Shown here: piece by piece, positions 49,792-62,606 of the stretch
How the letters are laid out: each line of letters opens with the position of its first letter
Position numbering within the stretch: the first letter of the stretch is position 1
Source of the DNA: Polyangiaceae bacterium
GTDB lineage: Bacteria > Myxococcota_A > Polyangia > Polyangiales > Polyangiaceae
Direction: 5' to 3'
Assembly: GCA_019637295.1 (NCBI GenBank)
Contig: JAHBVX010000002.1
Span: 310,001 to 374,000, forward strand
Length of the DNA stretch: 64,000 nucleotides
Position numbers and translations under genes: made by a program
The notes under the pieces: generated by a model
Database searches by the model: none
Told to the model about the DNA's origin: nothing
Seen by the model: only the letters and a program-made list of their open reading frames with translations

Positions 49792-50274
49792 TCAGGGCGC
49801 GCGGCCCAGGGAGAGCTCGAGGCACAGTCGCGGCGCGAGCAGGAACCCCTCGCGGCGGAAGAAGGCGATCAAGTCGCCTTGATCCCAGTCGACCTGCGTC
49901 TGAACTCGGTCCACGCCCAAGGCGCGCAAGTTCATCGTCAGCTGGCGCATCAAGGCGCCGCCGACGTGCTGCCCCGCGCGCGCGCCGTCCACGCCGATGG
50001 AGTCGATCAGCGCCACGGGCTCGGGTCGACCGAACTCGCCGTAGTAGAGCCGCCCGGTGAGAAACCCCGCGGGCTCCCCGTCGATCAGCGCAGCCAGCGA
50101 GATGCGCACGCCGGTGTCTTCGTCCGCTTCGACCAGCTTCTTGCGGAAGTACTCGCTGCGGGTTCGCTGCGAGTACTGCCGATCGATGCGCACTACCCAG
50201 TCGAGGTCCGAGCTGCGCAGGTTGCGGACTTCCACCGCGTCGGTCTCCAAGAGCCCAGGTTCGAGGTCACTCAT
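49792..50274 (-). CDS. GNAT-family N-acetyltransferase within the aromatic operon
   Basis: This 160-residue protein has a GNAT fold: VEVRNLRSSDLDWVVRIDRQYSQRTR at the N-terminus, then a strand ending in DSIGVD followed by the acetyl-CoA-binding loop RAGQHVGGALMRQL (R/Q-x-x-G-x-G/A), and a C-terminal FFRREGFLL. The start overlaps the hemerythrin stop by 4 bp. Benzoate clusters of Rhodopseudomonas palustris also contain an acetyltransferase gene (badL), so a role in controlling pathway enzymes by acetylation or in detoxification is possible. The substrate cannot be read. Confidence 0.82.
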   Translation of the reverse strand: MSDLEPGLLETDAVEVRNLRSSDLDWVVRIDRQYSQRTRSEYFRKKLVEADEDTGVRISLAALIDGEPAGFLTGRLYYGEFGRPEPVALIDSIGVDGARAGQHVGGALMRQLTMNLRALGVDRVQTQVDWDQGDLIAFFRREGFLLAPRLCLELSLGRAP

Positions 50275-50705
50275 GCTACCGCCACGCCGCGCAGGCGCCC
50301 CCAGTGTCGAAGGTTGTCGTCGAGCTGTCCCGATGCGCGCAGGGTGCTCTGTGCGACGGGGAAGAGGATGGCCTCCTCCTTGGCCAGGTGGTCGCGGGTG
50401 ACGCTGGCCAGGGCCGCAAACGCCGCGCGCGCCTGGGGCAGCGTCTTGGCCGCGTACAGTTCGGCGATTCGCTCGTCGATGAGCTCGTGCTCCGAGTGCA
50501 TCACCGCGATGGGGCCGCTCTGGGCCAGCAGCGAGAAGAGCAGGTCCTCCTCCAGCCGCGCGTGCGAGCTCAGCGCTTCGCCCAGTAGCTCGAACCCCGA
50601 GCGCAGCGCGCCGACGTCGCTCGCCTCGGCGACCAAGACCTCCATCCGATCGAACAGGGCGTACAGCACGCCGTGCTCGCCCAAGAGTGCTTCCGTCAGG
50701 TCCAT
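50271..50705 (-). CDS. Hemerythrin-like di-iron protein within the benzoyl-CoA reductase operon
   Basis: This is a 144-residue four-helix protein with the metal-binding pattern of hemerythrin/HHE proteins: H11 (GEHGVLY), H48 and E52 (SSHARLEED), H70/H73 (MHSEHELID), and H106 and E110 (RDHLAKEEAILFP). Such proteins bind O2 or NO at a di-iron centre. Sitting between the O2-sensitive benzoyl-CoA reductase and hydroxybenzoyl-CoA reductase genes, it may scavenge O2 or NO or sense them. This is inference from position. It is 24 bp downstream of bcrD and overlaps the GNAT gene. Confidence 0.85.
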   Translation of the reverse strand: MDLTEALLGEHGVLYALFDRMEVLVAEASDVGALRSGFELLGEALSSHARLEEDLLFSLLAQSGPIAVMHSEHELIDERIAELYAAKTLPQARAAFAALASVTRDHLAKEEAILFPVAQSTLRASGQLDDNLRHWGRLRGVAVA

Positions 50706-50729: not shown

Positions 50730-51587
50730 TCAACCAGCCTGTCGCTCGGCGAGCTGCTGCACGCGGTACGCGCCGAGCAGCGCGGCGCCCATCGCTCCCG
50801 CGAGGATCCCGTCGGCGTGAGCCAGCAAGGTCACGTCCGCGTGTTGCTTCTTCTTCTTGTTCTTCTCCTCGGCCAGCACCTCGTCGATGGCGGCGACCAT
50901 GCCTTCGTCACGGGACAGCCCGCCGGTGACCACCACTGTGCCCGCGGCACCCACCGAGCGAAGCAGCTGGACGAGCCGGCCCGCGATGCTGAGGTGGATG
51001 CCCTTGAGGATGTCCGGAGCCGCGATGCCCCGGCTGACCATGTTGATCACGTCCGTCTCGGCGAGCACGGCGCAGATGCTCGACACCTTCTCTGGCGTCC
51101 CCGCCTGCCGGCTCAGCGCGCCGACGTCTTCGAGCGGCACCCCGAGGTAGCGGGCGATGTTCTCCAGGAACTGGCCGCTGCCGCTGGCACACTGGCTGGT
51201 CATGCGGTGGGACAGCACCCGGCCGACGTCGTTCATGCGCAGACCGCGCGCGTGCAAGGCGCCGATGTCGAGGGCAGCGCGTGCGCTCTTGCACAGCTGT
51301 AGCGCGCCGCGAGCGTGGGTGGTCATGCTGTAGAAGTGCCCGGTGCGGAAGCCCACCGAGTCCCCGTCACCCGTGCTCGCGATGTAGTCGAAGTCGCGGT
51401 CCGTACAGCCCGCCTCCGCGCAGGCCTCGTCGAAGGTCGCCCGCACGACCTGGGCCACGTCCCTCCGGCGAATGCGCTGAACACGCGACGCCAAGAGCTC
51501 GGCGTCCTGGCCGGCGTTGCTACGAAAGATGGCGACCTTCACCGTGCTCGCGCCCGGGTCTACTCCTGCCGTCAAATGCCGACTCAT
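50730..51587 (-). CDS. bcrD: Benzoyl-CoA reductase (class I), subunit D, ATPase
   Basis: This is a 285-residue BadF/BadG-type ATPase. The start is best placed at ATG 51587, six bases after AGGAGG. Upstream in-frame GTG 51602 and ATG 51593 are alternatives, and the GTG would overlap the bcrA stop. Motifs are GVDPGASTVKVAIF (phosphate loop), ASTGDGDSVGF, ALDIGALHARGLRM, the Cys-bearing SQCASGSGQFLENI and SSICAVLAETDVINMVSRG (ligands for the [4Fe-4S] shared with BcrA), and VVVTGGLSRDEGM. It couples ATP hydrolysis to low-potential electron transfer to the BcrBC ring-reducing module. Confidence 0.92.
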   Translation of the reverse strand: MSRHLTAGVDPGASTVKVAIFRSNAGQDAELLASRVQRIRRRDVAQVVRATFDEACAEAGCTDRDFDYIASTGDGDSVGFRTGHFYSMTTHARGALQLCKSARAALDIGALHARGLRMNDVGRVLSHRMTSQCASGSGQFLENIARYLGVPLEDVGALSRQAGTPEKVSSICAVLAETDVINMVSRGIAAPDILKGIHLSIAGRLVQLLRSVGAAGTVVVTGGLSRDEGMVAAIDEVLAEEKNKKKKQHADVTLLAHADGILAGAMGAALLGAYRVQQLAERQAG

Positions 51588-51598
51588 GCTCATCCTCC

Positions 51599-52957
51599 TC
51601 ACGCGCCCGTGGTGAGCGCATCCAGCGCGAACGTGGGCAGGACCTGCGGTCGTCCAGCCACGACGTCGTCAAGCCCGTACAGCGCGGCGCCCAGTGCACC
51701 CATGTAGATGGAGTCCGGGTGGGCGTTGAGCGTGATGCCCTCGCCATAGCTGTCCGTGACCAGCTCGCGGAGCACCCGCGTGGCCATCGGGTTCTTGCAC
51801 ACCCCGCCGGTGAAGGTCAGCTCGTTCGAGACACCGCCGGAGCGCGCCAGGAGCGACATCGCCCGCAGCATGATGGAGCGGTGCAGCCCCGCGAGGATGT
51901 CCTCGCGGCGCTCGCCGAGGCCGAGCCGCTCGCGCAGTTCGGCGCCGGCAAAGACGGTGCAGGTCGAGTTGACCTTCACCACGCGCTTCGCGCCCAGGGC
52001 GAGCGGGCCCAGCTCGTGCAGACCCAGGTTCAGCTCGTCCGCGATGTAGCCCAGGTAGCGTCCGCAGCCGGCGGCGCAGCGATCGTTCATCTGGAAGGAG
52101 GTGACCACCCCGTGTCCGTCCACCTGGATCGCCTTGGTGTCCTGTCCGCCGATGTCGAGCACCGTGCGCGTACCGCCGAACACGCGGTGGGCGCCGCGGC
52201 CGTGGCACAGGATCTCGCTGCGCACGGCCTCCTTGGGGAAGGGCAGGGTCTGGCGACCGTAGCCGGTGCCCACGAACGCCAGCTCCTGGATGGGTGCTCT
52301 GGCGGCGCGAGCCACGGCGGACTCGAAGCGCTTGCGCTCCTCACCGGAGGTACCTCGCTCGAGCACGTGACGCGCGGCGCGCGCGAGCAGATCCCCGAAG
52401 TCGCGACGGCGGAGCTCCGTCTCGACGTTCAGTACGGCGCGGTCGAACAGCCCAACGAGCCGCTCGTAGGGCACGTTCTGCTCGCGGCTCACCTCCTCGG
52501 CGGCGCTGATGAACGCTGCGCCGGCCAAGTCGCGAAAGAAGTCGCTCTTGCGGGGCGCGCCCACGACGAAGAGCTCGGGCGCGTGCAGGCGCATCCGCTC
52601 GTGCACCTCGCGCGCCGCCGGCTCGAGCGTGGCCTTCTGGCCGACGTAGGTCAGCGCGCGCAGCGCGACGGCCACCTCCGCTTCGAGCTCCGCCAGCTGA
52701 TCCCGATACAGCTCGAGCCGGAATGCTTCGTGCAGCTGGTCCCGCCAGCTCTGAGCGTCGTCCGCGAAGCTCTCGAGCTCGCGCTGCAGCAGCGTGAACC
52801 GGACGGCGATCAGGGCCTCTTCACGTGCCACGGCGCAGGCCACCTCGTAGTTGCTGCGGCTGTTGGTGATGCCTCGTCCGACGACGCGGCCCTGCTCGTC
52901 GAGCAGCACCGCCTTGGTGGTGGTGGAGCCCAAGTCGATGCCGACGACGCACCTCAT
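51599..52957 (-). CDS. bcrA: Benzoyl-CoA reductase (class I), subunit A, ATPase
   Basis: This 452-residue ATPase subunit is the partner of BcrD. Motifs are VVGIDLGSTTTKAVLLDEQGRVVGRGITNS (phosphate loop), FVGTGYGRQTLPFP, TVLDIGGQDTKAIQVD, NDRCAAGCGRYLGYIADELN and VNSTCTVFAGAELRERLGLG (the two Fe-S Cys), and LTFTGGVCKNPMATR. It has an N-terminal insertion of about 150 helical residues, as BcrA/BadF proteins do. The presence of two distinct ATPase subunits identifies the ATP-dependent class I enzyme rather than the ATP-independent tungsten BamB type. Its start overlaps the bcrB stop by 4 bp. Confidence 0.94.
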   Translation of the reverse strand: MRCVVGIDLGSTTTKAVLLDEQGRVVGRGITNSRSNYEVACAVAREEALIAVRFTLLQRELESFADDAQSWRDQLHEAFRLELYRDQLAELEAEVAVALRALTYVGQKATLEPAAREVHERMRLHAPELFVVGAPRKSDFFRDLAGAAFISAAEEVSREQNVPYERLVGLFDRAVLNVETELRRRDFGDLLARAARHVLERGTSGEERKRFESAVARAARAPIQELAFVGTGYGRQTLPFPKEAVRSEILCHGRGAHRVFGGTRTVLDIGGQDTKAIQVDGHGVVTSFQMNDRCAAGCGRYLGYIADELNLGLHELGPLALGAKRVVKVNSTCTVFAGAELRERLGLGERREDILAGLHRSIMLRAMSLLARSGGVSNELTFTGGVCKNPMATRVLRELVTDSYGEGITLNAHPDSIYMGALGAALYGLDDVVAGRPQVLPTFALDALTTGA

Positions 52958-54261
52958 GCGCTGGCCCTCCCGCGGCGTGCCTCGAGCATCTGCAGGTAGC
53001 TCTGCAGCCGGTTCTCGATGTTGGCCTTACCGAAGTAGCGAGGGTCCACCAGATCCGACTCGATGAAGCCGCCGGGCACCCCGGTGCGCTTCTCGAGTTC
53101 CCGCAGCATCACGAGCTGACCGGCAGAGAAGGAGTTGCAGCTCTTGACGCTGTTGATCAAGAAGCCGTCTGCCTCGTAGCGCCGGATGTAGTCCTCCAAG
53201 AGCGCCGTGCGCGTGGGCAGACCCAGGTTCGTGTAGCAACCGAGGCAGTAGTCGGCGAGGCTCTCGAGGGGCTCGTCCGGCGAGTGACGGAAGCCCTTGT
53301 CGTACAGACCGCCGACGCGGGTGTAGGTGCTCGCGACCACGGTTGCCCCCTCTCGGCTGAACATCCGCCAGAAGTCGAGGAAGCTGGTCCAGTTGGGCGG
53401 ACCTTCCACGACCAGTCGAAAGCGCTCCTCGCCCGCGGGGCCGTCGGGCGTCATGGGCCCCTCCTTCCGTCGCACCCGTTCGTCCACCTCGGCCCGCAGC
53501 ATCTGGTAGTAGCGGACGGCGTCTTCGGTGCCGCGGAAGGCGCTGAAGATGGGACCCACGTAGTAGACACCGCCAAAGTAGCCGTCGATGGGCGAGGGGC
53601 GATGGCGCGCGGACTCCCACACGGCCACCAGATCGTCCTCCGCCCGGTGGCTCAGCTGCAGCCGCCGCGAGAGCTCTCTCATGTCGAGCTTCTTGCCGGC
53701 CACCTGCTCCATCGCCGGGATGACCACGTCCTTCAGCTGACGCACGATGTACTCGCGCATCTCGGGGGTGATCTCGCCGTCCGTCTGGTAAGGAACGTGC
53801 AGCATCACCACCGGACACTTGTACTCTTCGCGCAACAGCTCGAACCACTTCATGAACGTGAAGCAGCCGGTGTAGGACAGCAGCAGTAGATCCGGCTCCG
53901 GCAGCTTGGTGCCGGTGGGCCCGATGTTCCCGCTCTTGAGCATGCCGATGTCGCACTTGACGTAGGTGCAGACATCTTCAGAGTGTCCGGCCTTCTCGGC
54001 CTCGGCGATGTAGCCGGCGCTCTTCTTGCGCATGCCCGATTGCAGCGCGTTGATCTCGGGCAGAACGGCGAGCATGTCGAGGGCGCCGATCAGCTCGGTC
54101 AAGTTGCCGGGCACGAAGGTGTAGACCACCTTCTTGCCTTCGGCCTTGGCGCGCGCCAAGCGCTCGAAGTGGTCAGCGATCATGCGCTTCTGTTCGATCT
54201 GACTCTGGTCCTTCTCCGCCGGCTCGAGCTGCGCACTTTGGGTCATGGCTGGGTTACTCAT
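52954..54261 (-). CDS. bcrB: Benzoyl-CoA reductase (class I), subunit B
   Basis: This is a 435-residue protein of the 2-hydroxyglutaryl-CoA dehydratase D family. Visible motifs are VVYTFVPGNLTELIGALDMLAVLPEINAL, DVCTYVKCDIGML, LSYTGCFTFMKWFELL, VVMLHVPYQ, LADYCLGCYTNLGLPTRTALLEDYI and NSVKSCNSFSAGQLVMLRELEKRTG. The conserved cysteines would hold the active-site Fe-S cluster. With BcrC it performs the two-electron reduction of benzoyl-CoA to cyclohexa-1,5-diene-1-carbonyl-CoA. The 4-bp overlaps on both sides imply tight co-translation. Confidence 0.94.
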   Translation of the reverse strand: MSNPAMTQSAQLEPAEKDQSQIEQKRMIADHFERLARAKAEGKKVVYTFVPGNLTELIGALDMLAVLPEINALQSGMRKKSAGYIAEAEKAGHSEDVCTYVKCDIGMLKSGNIGPTGTKLPEPDLLLLSYTGCFTFMKWFELLREEYKCPVVMLHVPYQTDGEITPEMREYIVRQLKDVVIPAMEQVAGKKLDMRELSRRLQLSHRAEDDLVAVWESARHRPSPIDGYFGGVYYVGPIFSAFRGTEDAVRYYQMLRAEVDERVRRKEGPMTPDGPAGEERFRLVVEGPPNWTSFLDFWRMFSREGATVVASTYTRVGGLYDKGFRHSPDEPLESLADYCLGCYTNLGLPTRTALLEDYIRRYEADGFLINSVKSCNSFSAGQLVMLRELEKRTGVPGGFIESDLVDPRYFGKANIENRLQSYLQMLEARRGRASA

Positions 54262-55451
54262 GCTGCACTTCCCCAGAGCTTGACGGCGTCCGAGAAGGCG
54301 CCGGCTTGTTCACGGATCACCTGAAACTGACCGCTATTTTCCGCATACTTCAGGCTGGTGTGCGGGATGCCTTGGCGGTCGAGGGCGGCTTCGAGCATGG
54401 GCTGGTCGAGCAGCGCTGGATCGCAGAACGAGGCAGCGGCAAAGATGACCCCCTCGGCGGCCGCGGCGCGGACGCTCTCGATCAGCGCGTCGCCTTTGGT
54501 CGCCTCGCCGATGTAGCGGCTCGAAGTGGCGACGCCCCGGTCGAGGTAGGCGTTCGACAGCGCCGTCCAGGGGTCGATGCTCGAGTCCTCCTCGATGTCC
54601 CCCTCGATGAAGTGAAGGCCCAGCTGGAAGTCGTCATCGACGATGTCGCAGCCCGCTGCCTCCAGCGTTCGAATCAAGCCCAGCGGAGGCTGCTCGCAGA
54701 ACGCGCCGCGGACCACGACCCGCACGTTGTCGTAGGCGCGTGCCTCACGTCTCTCCAGGGCGGCCAGCAGCTCCCGGAGCCAGGCCTCGTGCTCCTGCGC
54801 CTCGAGCACGCTGCCGGCGCGCGCCGCGAGGTACGCCTCCGACGCGCGCAGTCGCCAGGGCTCTCGACGGCGCAGGGCGCTGAGCTCGCTCAGTACGCGC
54901 CGGCGCGAGTTCTCTCGGCGAATGGCCGCTCGCAGCTCCTCGTCCGAGGGGGGCTTGGCGCCGCGGCCGACGAGTCCCGCCGCGATGCGCCGAAGCTCAC
55001 CGGTGTAGAAGCGCCCGCCGATGTCGCGATCGAAGTTCTGGGGCAGGTCCACGTAGGCGGTGAAGCGCTCGGGGAAGAGCATGTTCCAAATCCCGCCCAG
55101 GTTGCGGATCACGTCGCAGATCGACGGGAACAGCATGCCGTCGAGCACGTCGAGCTGCCCACCCATCGCCAGCTCGAGCGTGCTGCGGGGGATGCGGCAG
55201 ATGTAGGACTGAAAGTAGGAGTCCCCCCGGATCACGTCGAGCTGGTCGCCGCCGCCGAAGATGGAGACGGGCAGGCAACCCATGGCCTCGAGCAACGGGC
55301 GGGGGACGTAGATGGGGAGCGCGCCGATGGCCAAGCCCCCGGGATGCGCCTCTTTCCAGCGTCGGACCCGGGAGAAGCTCATGTCTTCGTACAGCGCGAG
55401 GCAGCGCGCGAGCACCTCCGCGGCGGGGTCCGATGCAGTCGAGTCGGTCAT
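54258..55451 (-). CDS. bcrC: Benzoyl-CoA reductase (class I), subunit C
   Basis: This is a 397-residue protein with the same fold as BcrB. Motifs are LAIGALPIYVPRPLLEAMGCLPVSIFGGGDQLDVIRGDSYFQSYICRIPRSTLELA, LDGMLFPSICDVIRNLGGIW, VVVRGAFCEQPPLGLIRTLEAAGCDIVDDDFQLG, and ASFCDPALLDQPMLEAALDRQGIPHTSLKYAENSGQF. The cysteines in GAFCEQP, AASFCDP and the N-terminal region fit Fe-S ligation at the benzoyl-CoA-reducing site. It is the first structural gene after tetR, overlapping its stop by 4 bp. Confidence 0.94.
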   Translation of the reverse strand: MTDSTASDPAAEVLARCLALYEDMSFSRVRRWKEAHPGGLAIGALPIYVPRPLLEAMGCLPVSIFGGGDQLDVIRGDSYFQSYICRIPRSTLELAMGGQLDVLDGMLFPSICDVIRNLGGIWNMLFPERFTAYVDLPQNFDRDIGGRFYTGELRRIAAGLVGRGAKPPSDEELRAAIRRENSRRRVLSELSALRRREPWRLRASEAYLAARAGSVLEAQEHEAWLRELLAALERREARAYDNVRVVVRGAFCEQPPLGLIRTLEAAGCDIVDDDFQLGLHFIEGDIEEDSSIDPWTALSNAYLDRGVATSSRYIGEATKGDALIESVRAAAAEGVIFAAASFCDPALLDQPMLEAALDRQGIPHTSLKYAENSGQFQVIREQAGAFSDAVKLWGSAA

Positions 55452-56113
55452 CGTATTGGCTCCTGTTCTCCGTCCGCGATCAGCGCTGGGGCGGCGTGGT
55501 CAGACAGCTCCGCTTCCACCCGCGCGAGCAGCGCGTCGTCCGTCCGCCGCTCGACCAGTCCACCGCTCACGAGGTGCATGATGGTACGCGCGAGCCCGTC
55601 GGGAGCGCCGTGTTGCTCGGGATCGTACCAACCGTAGATCCAGTTCAGCACGCCAAACACGCAGTAGGTCGTCTTCTCGACCTCGGCGTACGGCGTGCCT
55701 TCGGGCATCACGCTCGAGACCAGCTCGGAGGCCAGCGTGAAGTACGCGAGCTTGCGCTCCCGCACCAAGCCCCGCTGGGGGGGAGCGAGCGCGGTGGCCT
55801 CCTGGATGAGCACCCGCATCACGTGATCGTGCGACGCGAAGTAGCGCACGTGGTTGAGCACGAAGGCGTACAGGCGCTCCTCCGGTTCGACGAAGCGGCC
55901 GAGCAGGCTGCGCGCCCGGGCGAGGAGCACATCGAACGCCTCGCTCTGAATCGCGAACAGCACCGCCTCTTTGGAGGGGAAGTAGTTGTAGAAACTCGCC
56001 GTGGATCGGCCCGTGGCTTGGGCGAGCTTGCGCATGCTCATGCCGTGGAAGCCGTGCGCGGCCACGGCTCGCGCCGCGGCGTGCAGGATCTCGCTCCGGG
56101 GGCTCGGGTGCAT
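55448..56113 (-). CDS. TetR-family regulator heading the benzoyl-CoA reductase operon
   Basis: This is a 221-residue protein. The helix-turn-helix (RSEILHAAARAVAAHGFHGMSMRKLAQATGRSTASFYNYFPSKEAVLFAI) is typical TetR; the C-terminal domain (about 60-200) would bind a ligand, plausibly an aromatic CoA-ester. It is translationally coupled to bcrC (4-bp overlap), so it is autoregulated with the operon. A 21-bp palindromic site identical to one in front of the had operon starts five bases upstream of its ATG. No ribosome-binding site fits between site and ATG, so the mRNA may be leaderless. The equivalent regulators in known bad/bzd/bcr clusters are MarR- or BzdR-type, so TetR control is a variation. 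Confidence 0.87.
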   Translation of the reverse strand: MHPSPRSEILHAAARAVAAHGFHGMSMRKLAQATGRSTASFYNYFPSKEAVLFAIQSEAFDVLLARARSLLGRFVEPEERLYAFVLNHVRYFASHDHVMRVLIQEATALAPPQRGLVRERKLAYFTLASELVSSVMPEGTPYAEVEKTTYCVFGVLNWIYGWYDPEQHGAPDGLARTIMHLVSGGLVERRTDDALLARVEAELSDHAAPALIADGEQEPIR

Positions 56114-56117
56114 GGGT

Positions 56118-56138
56118 GTACGAACGTTCGTTCGCACG
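56118..56138. promoter_or_regulatory. Palindromic operator candidate for the TetR regulator (tetR-bcr promoter)
   Basis: The core CGAACGTTCG is self-complementary and extends to CGAACGTTCGTTCG. The whole 21 bp recurs without a mismatch at 59165-59185 in front of had. It lies 5 bp before the tetR start codon, where a bound repressor would block RNA polymerase. Confidence 0.78.
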
Positions 56139-56155: not shown

Positions 56156-56169
56156 TTGACGGGGGTCAA
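56156..56169. promoter_or_regulatory. FNR-type box upstream of the tetR-bcr operon
   Basis: TTGAC-GGGG-GTCAA is a perfect inverted repeat in FNR/CRP format (TTGAT-N4-ATCAA class). It lies 17 bp upstream of the palindromic operator, the same spacing as in front of had. The centre-to-centre distance of 34.5 bp would allow the box at -41.5 and the operator over the -10 region. Confidence 0.75.
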
Positions 56170-56190: not shown

Positions 56191-56973
56191 TCAGGCGTGG
56201 CTCCAGGCCGGCGGTCGTCTCGCGATGAAGGCCTCGATGCCTTCGGTAGGGTCGGCGCCCGCCATCAGCTCGTCCAGGTACTGCCGCTCGGCCTGCGCCA
56301 GATCGTGGCTGAAGTCCCGCAGCAGGCTGCGGCGGGCGGCGGCGGTCGCTTGCCGCACGGCGAAGGCCGAGAGCGGGGCGATGTGGGTCTGGTACCAGCC
56401 GAGGGCCGCGTCGAGCAGCTCTACGTCGTCCTCGACCAGCTCCGTCACCAGCCCGAGCTCGGCCGCCTGCGGAGCGCTCAGGTCGGCCCCGGTGAGCAGC
56501 AGCCTCTCGCTGGCGCTCTGCCCCAGACGGGCGGGGCCGAGGGCGGCCAGCACCGGCGGGAACACGCCCAGCTTGATCTCCGGGCAGGCGAACACCGCCG
56601 AGCGCTGGGCGAACACGAAGTGCCCAGCCAGCACGAGCTCGAACGCGCCGCCCAGACAACGCCCCTGCACCAGCGCCGCGATGGGCACGGGATAGCCCGC
56701 GACCCGTCGACACACCGCGTGGAACGACGAGAGCATCCGAGCAGCCTGCGCCTTGCGATGCTCCTCGACGGAGGCGCCAAACGAGAAGTGTCTGCCCTCG
56801 GTACGCACGAGGACCAGGCCGAGAGCCGGCGCGGATTCGTGCTCCGCGAGCGCGGCGTCGAGCTTCGCGAGCAGCGAGCTGGTCAAGATGTTGCCCTTCT
56901 CGCGAGAGAGGGTCACGTCGAGCACGCGACCGTCGGCCAGTAGCCGAGCGCGAACGTGCTCCGCTTCGCTCAC
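56191..56973 (-). CDS. dch: Cyclohexa-1,5-diene-1-carbonyl-CoA hydratase
   Basis: This is a 260-residue crotonase-family enzyme: VLDVTLSREKGNILTSSLLAKL, a CoA/oxyanion loop LVLVRTEGRHFSFGASVEEH, and ALVQGRCLGGAFELVLAGHFVFAQRSAVFACPEIKLGVFPPVLA. The phrases KGNILTS and HFSFGASVEEH resemble dienoyl-CoA hydratases of benzoate pathways rather than fatty-acid enoyl-CoA hydratases. It adds water to the product of benzoyl-CoA reductase, giving 6-hydroxycyclohex-1-ene-1-carbonyl-CoA. It is third gene of the had-oah-dch operon, overlapping oah by 4 bp. Confidence 0.88.
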   Translation of the reverse strand: MSEAEHVRARLLADGRVLDVTLSREKGNILTSSLLAKLDAALAEHESAPALGLVLVRTEGRHFSFGASVEEHRKAQAARMLSSFHAVCRRVAGYPVPIAALVQGRCLGGAFELVLAGHFVFAQRSAVFACPEIKLGVFPPVLAALGPARLGQSASERLLLTGADLSAPQAAELGLVTELVEDDVELLDAALGWYQTHIAPLSAFAVRQATAAARRSLLRDFSHDLAQAERQYLDELMAGADPTEGIEAFIARRPPAWSHA

Positions 56974-58088
56974 GACTCACTCTCCCGGCGAGCCGCCGCA
57001 CCCGGCGGGAGCACCGCGTCGATCAGCGCTTGGTCGAAGCGGTCGCCTCGGGCGACTCGGCGGCGCAGCTCCACGAAATCGATCTCCCGTGCGCTCCTGT
57101 CGCCAAAGTGAAACGCCGGGAAGCCAGCCGCTGCCTCGGTGTTCATGTTGAGGGAGAGCCAGGAGCGGTTGGTCTCGCTGTTGGCGTACCAGTGCACGAG
57201 CTTCTTCTTGCGCACGCTCTCCAGGGTCTTTCGGCTGCAGTCGGGGAACGTGTACAACAGCTTGGTGGCCAGTCGACCGACCGCGGCGTCCAGCTCGGAG
57301 AAGTCGATGACGCAACTCTCGACCACCTTCTTGGCGGCGTCGCGCTCGGCGCCGGTCTTCCACTCGCCGTGCACGATCATGCCGCGCTCGTCGAGGTAGC
57401 GATCCGTGATCACGAACGGGTTCGCGATGAACTTGCCGTCGCTGGTCTTGTAGACCGGTGTGATCTCGTTCACCAGCCCGATGCGGTGTGCCTTGTGGGC
57501 GGACCAGGGCTCGCACAGCACCAGCGACTCCACAGCTCGCGCGAAGCCCACGTACTCGTCGAGGAAGTCCGTGGAGCCGCCGTCGGGCGCGGAGCCGTGC
57601 ACCGGTCCCGCCTGTCCGAAGCGAGCGTGATCGCCCGCGAGCGTGAAGTCGCAAGCCATGCCGATCTCTTGTCCGCCGCCGATGCGCATGCCGTTCACGC
57701 GGCACACGACGGGCTTGTCGCACAGCAAGATGTTGGTGACCATGTCGTTGAACAGCCGCATGTACTGCAAGTACTCGAGCGGCCTGCTCCGATAGTAGGT
57801 CGCGTACTCGGCCGTGTTGCCGCCGGTGCAGAAGGCGCGCTCTCCGACCGCAGTGAACACCACGCACACGGCAGCGCGATCCATGCTCGCGCGGCGGAAG
57901 CCGAGGATCACGTCCTTGACGGCCTCGGTGGTGTAAGAGTTCAGCTGCCGTTCGTTGTCGAGGCTCAGCCACACCTGGTGCAGGCCTTCGACCGGCGTGC
58001 CGCGGCGGTCGAGGACGGGCTTCTTCTCGTAGCGCACGTGGCGGAGCTCTCGGCGGGCATCGAGCTCGTGATCGCAGAGGTCGTTCAT
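56970..58088 (-). CDS. oah: 6-oxocyclohex-1-ene-1-carbonyl-CoA hydrolase
   Basis: This is a 372-residue crotonase-type ring-opening hydrolase, the BamA/Oah family used as a marker of anaerobic aromatic degradation. Motifs are LHQVWLSLDNERQLNSYTTEAVKDVILGFR, VFTAVGERAFCTGGNTAEYATYYRSRPLEYLQYMRLFNDMV, CRVNGMRIGGGQEIGMACDFTLA, and FGQAGPVHGSAPDGGSTDFLDEYVG. Its length fits the family and exceeds that of ordinary hydratases. The product is 3-hydroxypimelyl-CoA. It sits 16 bp after had, and its stop overlaps dch. Confidence 0.95.
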   Translation of the reverse strand: MNDLCDHELDARRELRHVRYEKKPVLDRRGTPVEGLHQVWLSLDNERQLNSYTTEAVKDVILGFRRASMDRAAVCVVFTAVGERAFCTGGNTAEYATYYRSRPLEYLQYMRLFNDMVTNILLCDKPVVCRVNGMRIGGGQEIGMACDFTLAGDHARFGQAGPVHGSAPDGGSTDFLDEYVGFARAVESLVLCEPWSAHKAHRIGLVNEITPVYKTSDGKFIANPFVITDRYLDERGMIVHGEWKTGAERDAAKKVVESCVIDFSELDAAVGRLATKLLYTFPDCSRKTLESVRKKKLVHWYANSETNRSWLSLNMNTEAAAGFPAFHFGDRSAREIDFVELRRRVARGDRFDQALIDAVLPPGAAARRESES

Positions 58089-58104: not shown

Positions 58105-59154
58105 TCATGCGTTGGGGTCGAGCACCAGACGCCGGTTCAGGCGATGCTCCTCGAGGGCGTCGAGCCACTCGTTCAGTCGGGACATGGGGGCGCGCTCGAT
58201 GAAGGGCTCGAGCTTCACTTTCCCCTCGTAGATCAGGGAGAGCACGGCGGGGTACGCGTCGATGGGACAGCCCCAGGTGCCGGCCATGGTGGCGTCGAAC
58301 GCCATTAGGTTGGACAAGCGAACCTGCACGGGTTCACGAGTGAAGCCCACCAGCATCAACGTGGCGCCCTGCGCCAGCAACGCGTAGGCCTGGAGCTGGC
58401 CGCCGGCGGTGCCGCTGCACTCGAAGATCCTGTACCGCAGCGAGGGGACCCCGAAGCCGCGCGCCAGGCCGTGAAGCTCCTTCTTCACGTCACGCACGTC
58501 GCGGCCCTGCACGCCGATGCGGGCGTCAGCGGGCAGCTGATCGAGCCGCTCCGGGTGCACGTCGCACACGACCGTCTTGGCGCCGAGGGCGTGAGCGATC
58601 TGAACCACGTAGCCGCCCACGCCGCCGCCGCCCACGACAAAGGCGATGTCCCCGCGCTCGAGCCCCGAGCGGAGCACGGCTTGGTAGGCAGTGCTCACCG
58701 CGTCCGCGACCACCGACAACGAGTCGAGCGCGATCGAGGGCGGTGCGCCGGCGAGGGACACGAGCGCATGAGCCGGCACCAGCAGGTGCGTCTGGAAGCC
58801 GCCGTCGATGTCGTTGCCGGGCATCTTCTGCGCTGGGCACGCGTTGCCGCGGCCCGCGCGGCAGAACGCGCAGTCGCCGCAGGGCATCACGGCCGGTACG
58901 AGCACCGGCTGCGACAGCAGGTGCTCCGCTCCGCTGCCGGCCTCGACGACGGTGCCCACGATCTCGTGCCCGAGCACCAAGGGCAGGTCGTGGCGAGGAG
59001 CCACGCTACCGCGGGCGAAGCCGAGGTCGGTGTGGCACAGCCCGCAGGCGGTCACCTCGACCACCACCTCTCCCGCCTGCGGCGCAGGCAGCGGCCGCAC
59101 GGTCTCCTCGAGGGGGCTGGACGGAGCGTTCAGGACGTAGGCGCGGGTCTTCAT
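58105..59154 (-). CDS. had: 6-hydroxycyclohex-1-ene-1-carbonyl-CoA dehydrogenase
   Basis: This is a 349-residue zinc alcohol dehydrogenase of the MDR family. The catalytic zinc region is VTACGLCHTDLGFARG and LVLGHEIVGTV; the structural zinc lobe is MPCGDCAFCRAGRGNAC; the NAD fold is GDIAFVVGGGGVGGYVVQIAHALGAKTVVCD. It oxidises the hydroxyl made by Dch to the 6-oxo compound cleaved by Oah; substrate specificity is inferred from operon context. The start ATG follows GAGGTGATC, and a palindromic operator plus FNR box lie directly upstream. Confidence 0.9.
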   Translation of the reverse strand: MKTRAYVLNAPSSPLEETVRPLPAPQAGEVVVEVTACGLCHTDLGFARGSVAPRHDLPLVLGHEIVGTVVEAGSGAEHLLSQPVLVPAVMPCGDCAFCRAGRGNACPAQKMPGNDIDGGFQTHLLVPAHALVSLAGAPPSIALDSLSVVADAVSTAYQAVLRSGLERGDIAFVVGGGGVGGYVVQIAHALGAKTVVCDVHPERLDQLPADARIGVQGRDVRDVKKELHGLARGFGVPSLRYRIFECSGTAGGQLQAYALLAQGATLMLVGFTREPVQVRLSNLMAFDATMAGTWGCPIDAYPAVLSLIYEGKVKLEPFIERAPMSRLNEWLDALEEHRLNRRLVLDPNA

Positions 59155-59164
59155 CGATCACCTC

Positions 59165-59185
59165 GTACGAACGTTCGTTCGCACG
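59165..59185. promoter_or_regulatory. Palindromic operator candidate (had-oah-dch promoter)
   Basis: This is the same 21 bp, base for base, as at 56118-56138, here 11 bp upstream of the had ATG. Beyond the 21 bp the flanks differ, so conservation is specific to the site. Confidence 0.78.
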
Positions 59186-59202: not shown

Positions 59203-59216
59203 TTGACCGAAGTCAA
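59203..59216. promoter_or_regulatory. FNR-type box upstream of had-oah-dch
   Basis: TTGAC-CGAA-GTCAA lies 17 bp beyond the palindromic operator, exactly as in the tetR-bcr promoter. The spacer bases differ from those of the other box (GGGG), while both half-sites are identical. It also lies between had and the fnr-like gene. Confidence 0.75.
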
Positions 59217-59244: not shown

Positions 59245-59901
59245 TCAGATGTTCGCGAACTTCTTGAGCGCGTCGAGGTTCGCGATGCGCACGCTCCGCC
59301 CACGGGCGACGGCTCGCCCATCCCTCAGGCGGGCCAGCGCGCGAGAGAACGTCTCGGGGCGCATGCCCAGGACCCGCGCGACCACGCGTTGCTGTACGTC
59401 GAGCGGATCATCGGGGCCGCTCGCTTGGTGGCTGGTCAAGAGGAAGCGCGCGATGCGCTGGACGGCGGTGCCCTCGAGCGCCTGGCGGTCGGCGGCGCGC
59501 CGGCCAGACTCGCGGAGCGCCAGCTCGAGGACGGCGCCCATGGGCGAGCCCAGGCGGCCCATCCAGGCCTTGAACGCGGTCACATCGATGGAGCAGAGCA
59601 CCACGTCGGTCAGCGCCCACACGCTGTGCGGCATGGATTCACCAAGTAGCGACTCCAGTCCGAGGAGCGACTCGGAACCGCGCACTCCGCACGCCCCGAG
59701 GGTTCCCGACTCGGTGAGCGAGCCGAAGACCGCCCGGCCTCGGCGCAGGTACCACACCGTCTGCGGGACCTCTCCCTCGGTGAGCAGCTGCGTTCCCCCG
59801 GTGCGTCGGCTCTCGCGGAAGGGGCAGACTTCGGGGAGCGATGCCGCACCCAGGGTGCAGACTTGGCAGCGCCACGGGATGACTTGGGTCGTTGCTGTCA
59901 T
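59245..59901 (-). CDS. CRP/FNR-family regulator with FNR-like cysteines
   Basis: This is a 218-residue protein from ATG 59901 (preceded by GGAGG; an in-frame GTG at 59907 is less well placed). The N-terminus has RCQVCTLGAASLPEVCPF, a C-x2-C-x10-C motif followed by PF, like the E. coli FNR motif C-x2-C-x5-C-x-PF but with a longer last gap. A fourth Cys occurs in VVLCSIDVTAFKAW, where FNR has Cys122. The cNMP-binding-fold beta roll follows, then the helix-turn-helix RVVARVLGMRPETFSRALARL with E-T-x-S-R as in FNR. It is probably an oxygen-sensing [4Fe-4S] activator, analogous to AadR of R. palustris. A box in its own promoter suggests autoregulation. Confidence 0.88.
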   Translation of the reverse strand: MTATTQVIPWRCQVCTLGAASLPEVCPFRESRRTGGTQLLTEGEVPQTVWYLRRGRAVFGSLTESGTLGACGVRGSESLLGLESLLGESMPHSVWALTDVVLCSIDVTAFKAWMGRLGSPMGAVLELALRESGRRAADRQALEGTAVQRIARFLLTSHQASGPDDPLDVQQRVVARVLGMRPETFSRALARLRDGRAVARGRSVRIANLDALKKFANI

Positions 59902-59943
59902 GGCCACCTCCGGCGTAGTGTACCAAGCCGGCCCTGGAGCGAA

Positions 59944-59957
59944 TTGACGGATGTCAT
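59944..59957. promoter_or_regulatory. FNR-type box upstream of the fnr-like gene
   Basis: TTGAC-GGAT-GTCAT has one mismatch in the second half-site. It is centred about 50 bp upstream of the fnr-like ATG (59901), in the 117-bp gap that otherwise shows no feature. Confidence 0.6.
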
Positions 59958-60018
59958 GTTCACGCGCGCTCCCCCGGCCAACCGTCGGAAATCACGTCCA
60001 GGGCAGATGACGAATGTC

Positions 60019-60984
60019 CTACTTGCAGGGTAGCAGGGTCGCCCACTCCGCCGCGGTGCGCTGGCTGCTCGGCGCCCGCCCCGGCCAGCACGTGATCCGG
60101 CTGGCACACTCCGCGTAGCGGTCGAGCGCGGAGGGATCCGGCAGCGGCCTGACGCCCGAGAGCCACAGGTTGAGCAACAGCAGCTCCATGCAAGTATTCC
60201 CGGTCCGCTCGCCCACGCCGAGGGCGGTGGCGTGGATGCGCTCGACGCCGTACTCGATGGCCCACAGCGCGTTGTCGAGCGCGAGGCCGCGGTCGTTGTG
60301 CCCGTGCCACTCGAGCCCCACCTCGGGTCGACCGCACTCGGTGGTGACGGTGCGAGCGAAGAGCACGAGGTTCCGGACGCCAGACGAGGTCGCGTGGCCG
60401 ACGGTGTCCGCGAGGCAGAGTCGGTGCGCCCCGGCGTCGAGGGCAGCGGTCCACAGCGCGCGCAGCGTGCCTGGGTGCGCGCGCGTGGTGTCTTCGGTGA
60501 CGAAGCAAACCTCGAGTCCTTCGCCCGTGGCGAACGCGACTGCGTCTCGCGTCCTCTGCACTAGCGTGTCCGTGCGCCAGTTCTCGACCCAGCATCGGAT
60601 CTCCGAGCCGCCGAGGAACGCGTAGGCAGCGGGAGCGATGCCGGTGCGTTGGGCGATCTCGACGATGGGGACGAGATCCCCCACGACGGTTCGGCCGGCA
60701 GCGATGGGCAAGATCGGTAGTCGCTGGCGCGCGATGGCGCGGCACAGCGCCTCGGCATGCTCACGATTGCGCGGCGAGGACACGGGCAGTCCGACGTTCA
60801 CATGGTCGATGCCGAGGGCGACCATGTGCTCGACCAACTCCAACTTCTGCTCCGCCGTTGGATCGGTCACGCTCGGGTTCTGGAGTCCGTCGCGCAGCGT
60901 CTCGTCGACGAACTTGGCGTGGGGCGTCAACGGCGAGCCTCGCGCTCCCATGGCGTTCCAATCGCTCAGCGCGGCGCCGCACAT
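60019..60984 (-). CDS. DRE-TIM metallolyase-like enzyme (isopropylmalate/homocitrate synthase or HMG-CoA lyase type), catalytic domain only
   Basis: This is a 321-residue protein; a start at the internal ATG 60951 would give 310. The catalytic signature is KFVDETLRDGLQNPSV (D-E-T-L-R-D-G). The metal-binding motif is LEWHGHNDRGLALDNALWAIEYGVERIHATALGVGERTGNTCMELLLLNL (H-x-H, then G-x-G-E-R-x-G-N). This is closest in pattern to the isopropylmalate/homocitrate/citramalate synthase branch. The C-terminal regulatory domain of those enzymes is missing, which suits a citramalate- or homocitrate-like or unregulated enzyme. Whether it serves the aromatic pathway is unknown. An FNR-type box lies 40 bp upstream. 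Confidence 0.78.
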   Translation of the reverse strand: MCGAALSDWNAMGARGSPLTPHAKFVDETLRDGLQNPSVTDPTAEQKLELVEHMVALGIDHVNVGLPVSSPRNREHAEALCRAIARQRLPILPIAAGRTVVGDLVPIVEIAQRTGIAPAAYAFLGGSEIRCWVENWRTDTLVQRTRDAVAFATGEGLEVCFVTEDTTRAHPGTLRALWTAALDAGAHRLCLADTVGHATSSGVRNLVLFARTVTTECGRPEVGLEWHGHNDRGLALDNALWAIEYGVERIHATALGVGERTGNTCMELLLLNLWLSGVRPLPDPSALDRYAECASRITCWPGRAPSSQRTAAEWATLLPCK

Positions 60985-61022
60985 CTCGAGTGGAGCTTGG
61001 TGGGCCGGGGCGTGACCCCGCC

Positions 61023-61036
61023 ATGACCTCCGTCAA
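61023..61036. promoter_or_regulatory. FNR-type box in the divergent region before the Fe-S factor gene
   Basis: ATGAC-CTCC-GTCAA has one mismatch in the first half-site. It lies between the divergent genes at 60984 (minus) and 61129 (plus) and could serve either. Confidence 0.55.
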
Positions 61037-61128: not shown

Positions 61129-61527
61129 ATGAAACCAGCGTACCAGGAGCTCAGCGCCGCCGCGTCGGACCCGCTGGCGCGTGGCTTGCTTGGAGCGCAG
61201 GACATGAGCTCGATCCTGGACGCGACTGGGCTGGCGGGTGAGGTGCGCCGAGCGCTCGGCTCGGTCATCGACCCCGAGGTCGGCATCGACATCGTCTCAC
61301 TCGGGCTCGTGTACGCCATCGACGTGCGAGGTGGCGAGGTGAGCGTGCAGATGACGATGACGACTCCCGCGTGCCCGCTCGGCGAACACCTCGTGCTGGA
61401 TGCGAAGCGGTGCATTCAGGAGCTTCCGGGTGTGCAATGGGTGGACATCGAGCTCGTGTGGGAGCCACCCTGGGATCCGACGCGGATGTCAGCGGAAGCG
61501 CGTGCGCGGTTCGGTTGGGCGCCGTGA
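61129..61527 (+). CDS. MIP18/DUF59-family metal-sulfur cluster assembly factor
   Basis: This is a 132-residue protein; an in-frame ATG at 61204 would remove a non-conserved 25-residue leader and may be the real start. The core is VRRALGSVIDPEVGIDIVSLGLVYAIDVRGGEVSVQMTMTTPACPLGEHLVLDAKRCIQELPGVQWVDIELVWEPPW. It has the I-D-P-E-x-G-x-D-I-V-x-L-G-L-V and T-x-x-x-C-P motifs of SufT/PaaD-like factors that help build Fe-S clusters. The stop overlaps the NnrS-like gene start (GTGA). A supporting role for the Fe-S-rich benzoyl-CoA reductase is plausible but unproven. Confidence 0.85.
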   Translation: MKPAYQELSAAASDPLARGLLGAQDMSSILDATGLAGEVRRALGSVIDPEVGIDIVSLGLVYAIDVRGGEVSVQMTMTTPACPLGEHLVLDAKRCIQELPGVQWVDIELVWEPPWDPTRMSAEARARFGWAP

Positions 61528-62606
61528 GGCTGGGGGAGCTTCAGCTCCGCCGCGGTCTGCTGCTGTTGGCTGCCGCAGCCGCGCTCAGCGCCGTGCTCGG
61601 GGGTCTGGCCAGGCTCGGTCTCGGAACCGACTGGGGAGACGCACGCGCGGTGGACCACGGTCCGCTGTTCGTGCTCGGTGTATTCGGCACAGTGATCGCG
61701 CTCGAACGAGCCGTCGCTCTGGGCGCGAGCTGGGGTCGGGCGGCACCGCTGCTGGGAGCCATGACGGCGCTCGCGCTGCTGCTCGGATTTCGCGAGCTGG
61801 GTCCACCGCTCGCCGGTGCGTCTGCCGTGGCGCTCGTCGCCGTCAACGCCGCCATCGTTCGGCGCCAAGCGGTCGCGTTCACCTGGTTGATGCTGCTTGG
61901 CTCAGGGCTGTTGCTCGTGGGGAACGTGGCCTGGCTCGTCGGAGTGCCGGTCCATCTCGTCGTCTGCGGCTGGATGGGCTTCTTCGTGCTCACGATCCTG
62001 GCGGAGCGACTCGAACTCTCGCGACTGGCGCCCAAGCCCCGGTGGGCGACCTCGACGCTCTGGCTCACCTCGATCGCGCTCACCGCAGCGGTAGGGCTGT
62101 CGCTCGCGCAAGCGCCCCTCGGGCCGCGCCTGCTCGGCGTCTGCTTCGCGGCGCTGGCGCTGTGGGAGGTCCGCTTCGACATCGCACGGCGCCTGCTGAG
62201 CGTCGACGGACTGCCTCGCTACGCGGCCGTCGGCGTCCTCGCGGGTGCGGGCTGGCTCGGGGTCTCGGGCGCGCTCCTGGCCGCGGGGGGCCTCGCGGCC
62301 GCCGGGCCCCACTACGACGCCGTCCTGCACGGCGTCTTCATCGGGTTCGTGCTGTCGATGGTGTTCGTGCACGCACCCATCATCTTGCCCGCGGTGGCGC
62401 GCCTCGAGTTGCCCTTCAGCTCGACGATGTACGTCGCCCTCGGGGTTCTGCACGTGGGGTTGAGCGTGCGACTCTTCGGAGACTTCTTGCCCCACGCGGC
62501 GCTCCGACGCGTCGGCGGGCTGTCCACTGCCGTCGCGCTGTTGGCGCTTGGCCTGGCGGCACTCTGGTCCAGACGGCGGGTGAGCGAGCGCCGCCCTACG
62601 GCGTGA
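61524..62606 (+). CDS. NnrS-like multi-pass membrane protein
   Basis: This is a 360-residue protein with GTG start overlapping the preceding stop. About ten transmembrane helices are visible. Features include HGPLFVLGVFGTVIALERAVAL, CGWMGFFVLTILAERLELSRL and a late HGVFIGFVLSMVFVHAPIILPAVARLELPF with histidines and Pro/Ser-rich turns. These resemble NnrS proteins, heme- and copper-containing membrane proteins linked to nitric-oxide stress during denitrification. The coupling to a DUF59 factor near an FNR-type box fits such clusters. The assignment rests on pattern only. Confidence 0.65.
   Translation: MRLGELQLRRGLLLLAAAAALSAVLGGLARLGLGTDWGDARAVDHGPLFVLGVFGTVIALERAVALGASWGRAAPLLGAMTALALLLGFRELGPPLAGASAVALVAVNAAIVRRQAVAFTWLMLLGSGLLLVGNVAWLVGVPVHLVVCGWMGFFVLTILAERLELSRLAPKPRWATSTLWLTSIALTAAVGLSLAQAPLGPRLLGVCFAALALWEVRFDIARRLLSVDGLPRYAAVGVLAGAGWLGVSGALLAAGGLAAAGPHYDAVLHGVFIGFVLSMVFVHAPIILPAVARLELPFSSTMYVALGVLHVGLSVRLFGDFLPHAALRRVGGLSTAVALLALGLAALWSRRRVSERRPTA

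Follow-up and report, generated by a model that had tools for sequence, protein, structure and literature searches.

The window analysed here, a stretch of 64,000 nucleotides from a Polyangiaceae bacterium, contains a set of anaerobic dearomatisation genes with a regulator of the CRP/FNR type next to them. The question that this locus raises is which signals allow these genes to be expressed. Judging by profile matches and gene order, the locus encodes a benzoyl-CoA reductase of class I together with the enzymes that follow it in the pathway:

59245-59901, minus strand: FNR-like regulator (Cx2Cx10C plus C103, ETFSR helix)
58105-59154, minus strand: had, 6-hydroxycyclohex-1-ene-1-carbonyl-CoA dehydrogenase (TIGR03201, above cut-off)
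56970-58088, minus strand: oah, 6-oxocyclohex-1-ene-1-carbonyl-CoA hydrolase/hydratase (TIGR03200, above cut-off)
56191-56973, minus strand: dch, cyclohexa-1,5-dienecarbonyl-CoA hydratase (best NCBIfam match TIGR03189, below cut-off)
55448-56113, minus strand: tetR, TetR-family repressor gene in the bcr operon (Pfam TetR_N and TetR_C_24)
54258-55451, minus strand: bcrC, class I benzoyl-CoA reductase subunit (TIGR02263, above cut-off)
50730-54261, minus strand: open reading frames bcrB (52954-54261), bcrA (51599-52957) and bcrD (50730-51602), whose order with bcrC is conserved in the loci compared

The order on the minus strand is had, oah, dch, tetR, bcrC, bcrB, bcrA and bcrD, with the regulator just upstream of had. 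A hemerythrin-domain protein is encoded downstream of bcrD (50271-50705), and other genomes too have hemerythrin-like genes in the vicinity of bcr or of the regulator (loci L057, L059, L180 and L181).

The regulator contains the Pfam domains cNMP_binding and HTH_Crp_2, both above cut-off, and the CRP fold is clear in its AlphaFold model. The ATG at 59901 is a likelier start codon than the GTG at 59907, because GGAGG is found just upstream of it. Numbered from this ATG, the cysteines of the protein are C12, C15, C26 and C103, the first three spaced as C-x2-C-x10-C. When aligned with E. coli FNR (~21% identity), C20, C23 and C122 are kept together with E209, T210, S212 and R213, whereas the third cysteine of the regulator comes 10 residues on, versus 5 in E. 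coli FNR. The preliminary description of this DNA had pointed out the C-x2-C-x10-C triad, its longer spacing, a later cysteine in the FNR position and an E-T-x-S-R helix; all of them are present, and the fourth cysteine is the one aligned with C122. Three features of Fe-S FNR-type regulators are thus found: the CRP fold, three N-terminal cysteines plus one at the C122 position, and the E-x-x-S-R helix. Some 15 residues, which carry the N-terminal helix in CRP/FNR proteins, are absent from the sequence, as they are from the AlphaFold model. Since the N-terminus is too uncertain in that model (pLDDT <50), the model is unfit for judging the geometry of a cluster. No named CRP/FNR equivalog of NCBIfam matched the protein above its curated cut-off, the weak matches to FtrB scoring 41 and 30 bits versus 211 and 300. 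The most likely role of the four cysteines is to hold an oxygen-labile [4Fe-4S] cluster.

Four sites in the window resemble the binding site expected for such a protein, at the places and with the mismatches that had been reported:

59203-59216: FNR-type box TTGACCGAAGTCAA, exact, before had (operon had-oah-dch)
56156-56169: FNR-type box TTGACGGGGGTCAA, exact, before tetR-bcrCBAD
59944-59957: box TTGACGGATGTCAT, one mismatch, in the regulator's own promoter
61023-61036: candidate box ATGACCTCCGTCAA, one mismatch, between an HMGL-like (DRE-TIM) gene and a DUF59 gene

Dinucleotide shuffling of the window, repeated 100 times, gave 0.64 matches on average, and a single shuffle reached the 4 observed here. 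The genome to which the window belongs (7.65 Mb, 25 contigs) was scanned with the same pattern and, as a control, with the reversed one. Exact TTGAC-N4-GTCAA occurs 9 times versus 1 for the control (P ~1e-6 for a mean of 1), so that the random genome-wide frequency which the preliminary description had named as a reason for doubt is not observed. When up to one mismatch is accepted, the 94 sites versus 90 in the control correspond to background. The motif thus places the exact boxes at 56156 and 59203 beyond chance, while those at 59944 and 61023 are not claimable from it alone, and giving the four boxes equal weight is ruled out by the background level of one-mismatch sites. The neighbours of the box at 61023 are not kept in the relatives examined. 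The promoters covered by the boxes are those of the dearomatisation genes, that of the regulator and a divergent one, which leaves the idea of a switch for the whole island unsupported. In turn, the proposal of an FNR-type regulator that would bind these boxes and control the local anaerobic aromatic pathway is well supported by the sequence comparisons.

The conservation of the regulator was studied in 240 genomes of the class, 26 of which contain a homologue (E up to 1e-15). The triad is present in 22 of the 26 as Cx2C-x(8-13)-C, the length of the loop varying from x8 to x13. The four cysteines are invariant in 18-sequence alignments of the homologues, as are the E, T, S and R of the recognition helix in the aligned relatives; the loss of cysteines in homologues sharing the gene order, which would have spoken against the proposal, was looked for and the cysteines are kept. 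The members devoid of the triad (G144, G211, G180 and G131) all come from genomes without bcrC. The 26 regulator genes were scanned over 250 bp of upstream sequence, accepting up to one mismatch, and 13 of them have a box there (12/25 without the window's own). The control patterns (reversed, other spacings, CRP site) were found at 0 or 1, and the canonical FNR site at 5/26, partly as mixed sites (TTGAT-N4-GTCAA) that count for both. The box at 59944 gains support as a putative autoregulatory site because boxes recur in this way upstream of the regulator genes of other members.

The dearomatising operons were scanned in the same fashion. Upstream of the first dearomatisation gene, 14 of the 19 regulator-positive genomes have a box, one mismatch being allowed, and the other 5/19 have none; non-FNR control patterns were found there in 0/19, and shuffles gave 0.03 on average. 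Two of the seven genomes called regulator-negative also have an operon box, but one of them, G027, does carry the regulator; G019, a regulator-negative genome, has an exact box at this operon. Several box-bearing genomes (G029, G175, G082, G101 and G098) encode the regulator at a distance from the operon or on a different contig, hence the link between box and regulator is not mere adjacency. Across the order, exact sites average 4.9 per genome in regulator-positive genomes (the outlier G180 left out) versus 2.0 in negative ones. G180, from the same family and without bcrC, contains 69 exact TTGAC-N4-GTCAA sites versus 1 control site, an excess that may come from a different FNR/HcpR-type protein with a large regulon or from a motif-bearing repeat. 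G098 has 20 exact sites versus 1.

The regulator is also associated with the reductase itself. A search of the 240 genomes with TIGR02263 (E up to 1e-110) detected bcrC in 31: 21 of the 22 with a cysteine-bearing regulator versus 10 of the 218 others (Fisher 1e-21, a value inflated by relatedness). Counted by taxonomic family, which gives a fairer figure, the association is 8/9 versus 5/21 (p 0.0016). Two of the ten bcrC genomes counted as regulator-less, G027 and G134, contain regulator fragments at contig ends. Yet the link is not universal, since Anaeromyxobacter isolates, outside the class, have the regulator without bcrC.

Both exact boxes of the window are followed by a second element, overlooked in the preliminary description together with the TetR repressor:

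59165-59184: predicted TetR operator GTACGAACGTTCGTTCGCAC, 20-bp palindrome, 18 bp gene-proximal to the box at 59203
56118-56137: predicted TetR operator GTACGAACGTTCGTTCGCAC, identical copy, 18 bp gene-proximal to the box at 56156

The palindrome GTACGAACGTTCGTTCGCAC is found nowhere else in the window, and box and operator are separated by 38 bp, start to start, at both promoters. Genome-wide, exact CGAACGTTCGTTCG occurs only at these two operators. The operator core ACGAACGTTCGT is present with 0-1 mismatches in 9/9 promoters of tetR-bearing operons, versus at least 4 mismatches in 18/18 promoters of operons without tetR. The distance from the centre of the box to that of the operator is 36-41 bp in 8 of the 9 tetR-type promoters (19 in G191), and in the two promoters of the window the core follows the box at ~36 bp. 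With the box centred at -41.5, the operator would cover the -10 and the start site, the latter predicted near 59168 and 56121. The promoters thus have the order and spacing expected for two inputs, an FNR box followed by a repressor operator over the predicted core promoter.

Taken together, these comparisons make it quite probable that the dearomatisation promoters are under a double gate, open when oxygen is off and aromatic-CoA is on, and formed by an FNR-type activator and a TetR repressor. A CRP/FNR-type dimer with an oxygen-labile [4Fe-4S] cluster would bind TTGAC-N4-GTCAA when oxygen is absent and recruit the polymerase, activating the had-oah-dch and tetR-bcrCBAD promoters. TetR, bound to ACGAACGTTCGT ~36 bp downstream of the box, on the predicted -10 and start site, would block the same promoter until released by an aromatic acyl-CoA, probably benzoyl-CoA. 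The pathway would then be made solely when oxygen is absent and the substrate present. The regulator may also bind its own promoter. Repression there is at least as probable as activation, because the box stands too close to the regulator's start codon for the usual activating position. The fold, the cysteines, the boxes, the operators, their spacing and their conservation are visible in the sequence; from them we infer the cluster, oxygen as its signal, the direction of control and the ligand of TetR. Several observations count against the gate. Class II spacing would leave leaders of only ~8 nt on the tetR and regulator transcripts. With the variable cysteine loop and the low pLDDT of the N-terminus, the geometry of the cluster is no more than presumed, and the 5/19 box-less genomes, the box of G019 and the bcrC-less Anaeromyxobacter regulators likewise weigh against the gate.

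The principle of such a gate is known from Azoarcus, of which the regulator, the cysteine loop and the promoters described here are a distinct myxobacterial version. At the PN promoter of Azoarcus sp. CIB, AcpR binds at -41.5 and the BzdR operator lies over -10/+1 (PMC6678401). BzdR and the TetR-family MbdR act over the -10 and start site (PMC6678401, PMC4424350), and MbdR responds to 3-methylbenzoyl-CoA (PMC4424350). AcpR with BzdR or MbdR (bzd and mbd genes; PMC6678401, PMC4424350) thus shares with our locus an FNR-type box upstream of a repressor operator, a benzoyl-CoA-type dearomatisation and an aromatic-CoA inducer, the last presumed here. Azoarcus differs in belonging to another phylum and in its operator, ATACN10GTAT, whereas ACGAACGTTCGT, bcr/had/oah/dch genes, a longer cysteine loop and TTGAC-N4-GTCAA are found here. 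AadR, which controls anaerobic aromatic degradation, and FnrN, from Rhodopseudomonas and other alphaproteobacteria (PMC4999443, PMC7713065), are likewise Fe-S FNR-type proteins with a shifted third cysteine. In FnrN/AadR this residue is displaced by two positions (PMC7713065), whereas the myxobacterial proteins have C-x2-C-x8 to x13-C and lack the N-terminal helix. E. coli FNR resembles them in its four cysteines, E-x-x-S-R helix and CRP fold, and differs in its C-x2-C-x5-C spacing, its TTGAT-N4-ATCAA box and the low identity given above.

Other interpretations of the same data have to be considered. One possibility, which we deem unlikely, is that the boxes are genuine but serve mainly a different CRP/FNR protein of the cell (HcpR-, DNR- or FixK-like), the four-cysteine protein being one of several readers. 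The box motif is not new: TTGACnnnnGTCAA is the published motif of HcpR (PMC1274295) and a variant of the Anr box (PMC4974557). Besides, G239 has a cysteine-less FNR relative with an exact box near its gene, and no regulator was detected in G019, despite the exact box at its bcr operon. Nevertheless, the boxes track the four-cysteine regulator across the class and occur at its own gene, and the genome of the window contains a single homologue of it at E <= 1e-5. HcpR shares this consensus in Geobacter, Desulfuromonas and cyanobacteria (PMC1274295) but regulates hcp/frdX, whereas the predicted targets here are dearomatisation genes; no hcp gene was seen beside the regulator.

Alternatively, the cluster could sense NO or the general redox state instead of oxygen. 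Fe-S FNR proteins react with NO too, and there is a hemerythrin-like gene within the operon. Yet no NO-metabolism gene was identified beside the regulator, and the NnrS label formerly given to 61524-62606 is unsupported, as NnrS is absent from the Pfam matches of its product even when E<1 is accepted. Since benzoyl-CoA reductases of this class are oxygen-sensitive, this reading appears improbable. The cysteines could also form a zinc site or a disulfide switch rather than hold a [4Fe-4S] cluster, as the variable loop (x8-x13) and the missing canonical N-terminal helix might suggest. This is doubtful given the alignment of the fourth cysteine with C122 of FNR and the cysteine-less relatives, where the N-terminal triad is missing as a whole and, in two of them, the fourth cysteine as well. 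Finally, chance matches, a very remote explanation to which only the background level of one-mismatch sites lends any weight, are ruled out by the exact-site excess (9 versus 1) and by the conservation of boxes at orthologous regulator and operon promoters.

Some boxes outside the locus may mark further targets of the regulator. The best-supported distant candidate is a B12-binding/radical-SAM-type gene preceded by an exact box in the genome of the window (L129, G000 C1:75000-82000) and in G170 (L124, C152:1000-7500). The two genes are 72% identical, and no NCBIfam name was obtained for this gene at E<=1e-20. G170 also has an exact box in the interval that separates boxC from a BoxR/BzdR-type regulator gene, at the aerobic benzoyl-CoA pathway (L125, C55:8000-14000), which suggests a putative cross-talk with that pathway. 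In the genome of the window, another exact box precedes a korA-like gene for a 2-oxoacid:ferredoxin oxidoreductase alpha subunit with a ferredoxin domain (L130, G000 C1:97000-105000), a system that is a possible electron donor for the reductase. As a conserved target korA was rejected, since the orthologue of G115 lacks a box even when one mismatch is allowed and an orthologue is missing from G170; it is kept as a lead. A site on contig C160 of G170 that shares the spacer of the korA box was discarded, as it sits in an unrelated coding sequence.

More tentatively, and with a chance of holding that we put somewhat short of even, these regulators may form a separate myxobacterial clade of Fe-S FNR-type sensors, with a compact, helix-less N-terminus and an elastic C-x2-C-x8 to x13-C loop, that in one class came to serve class I benzoyl-CoA reductase as its dedicated oxygen gate, even when encoded far away. 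The locus offers a testable circuit for the control of anaerobic aromatic degradation by myxobacteria, a topic on which a literature search gave almost nothing. The homologues form a natural series of FNR-type proteins whose cysteine loops range from 8 to 13 residues, suited to studying how loop length tunes the stability of the Fe-S cluster and its sensitivity to oxygen, and the pair made up of the box and ACGAACGTTCGT could serve as a genome marker for such operons.
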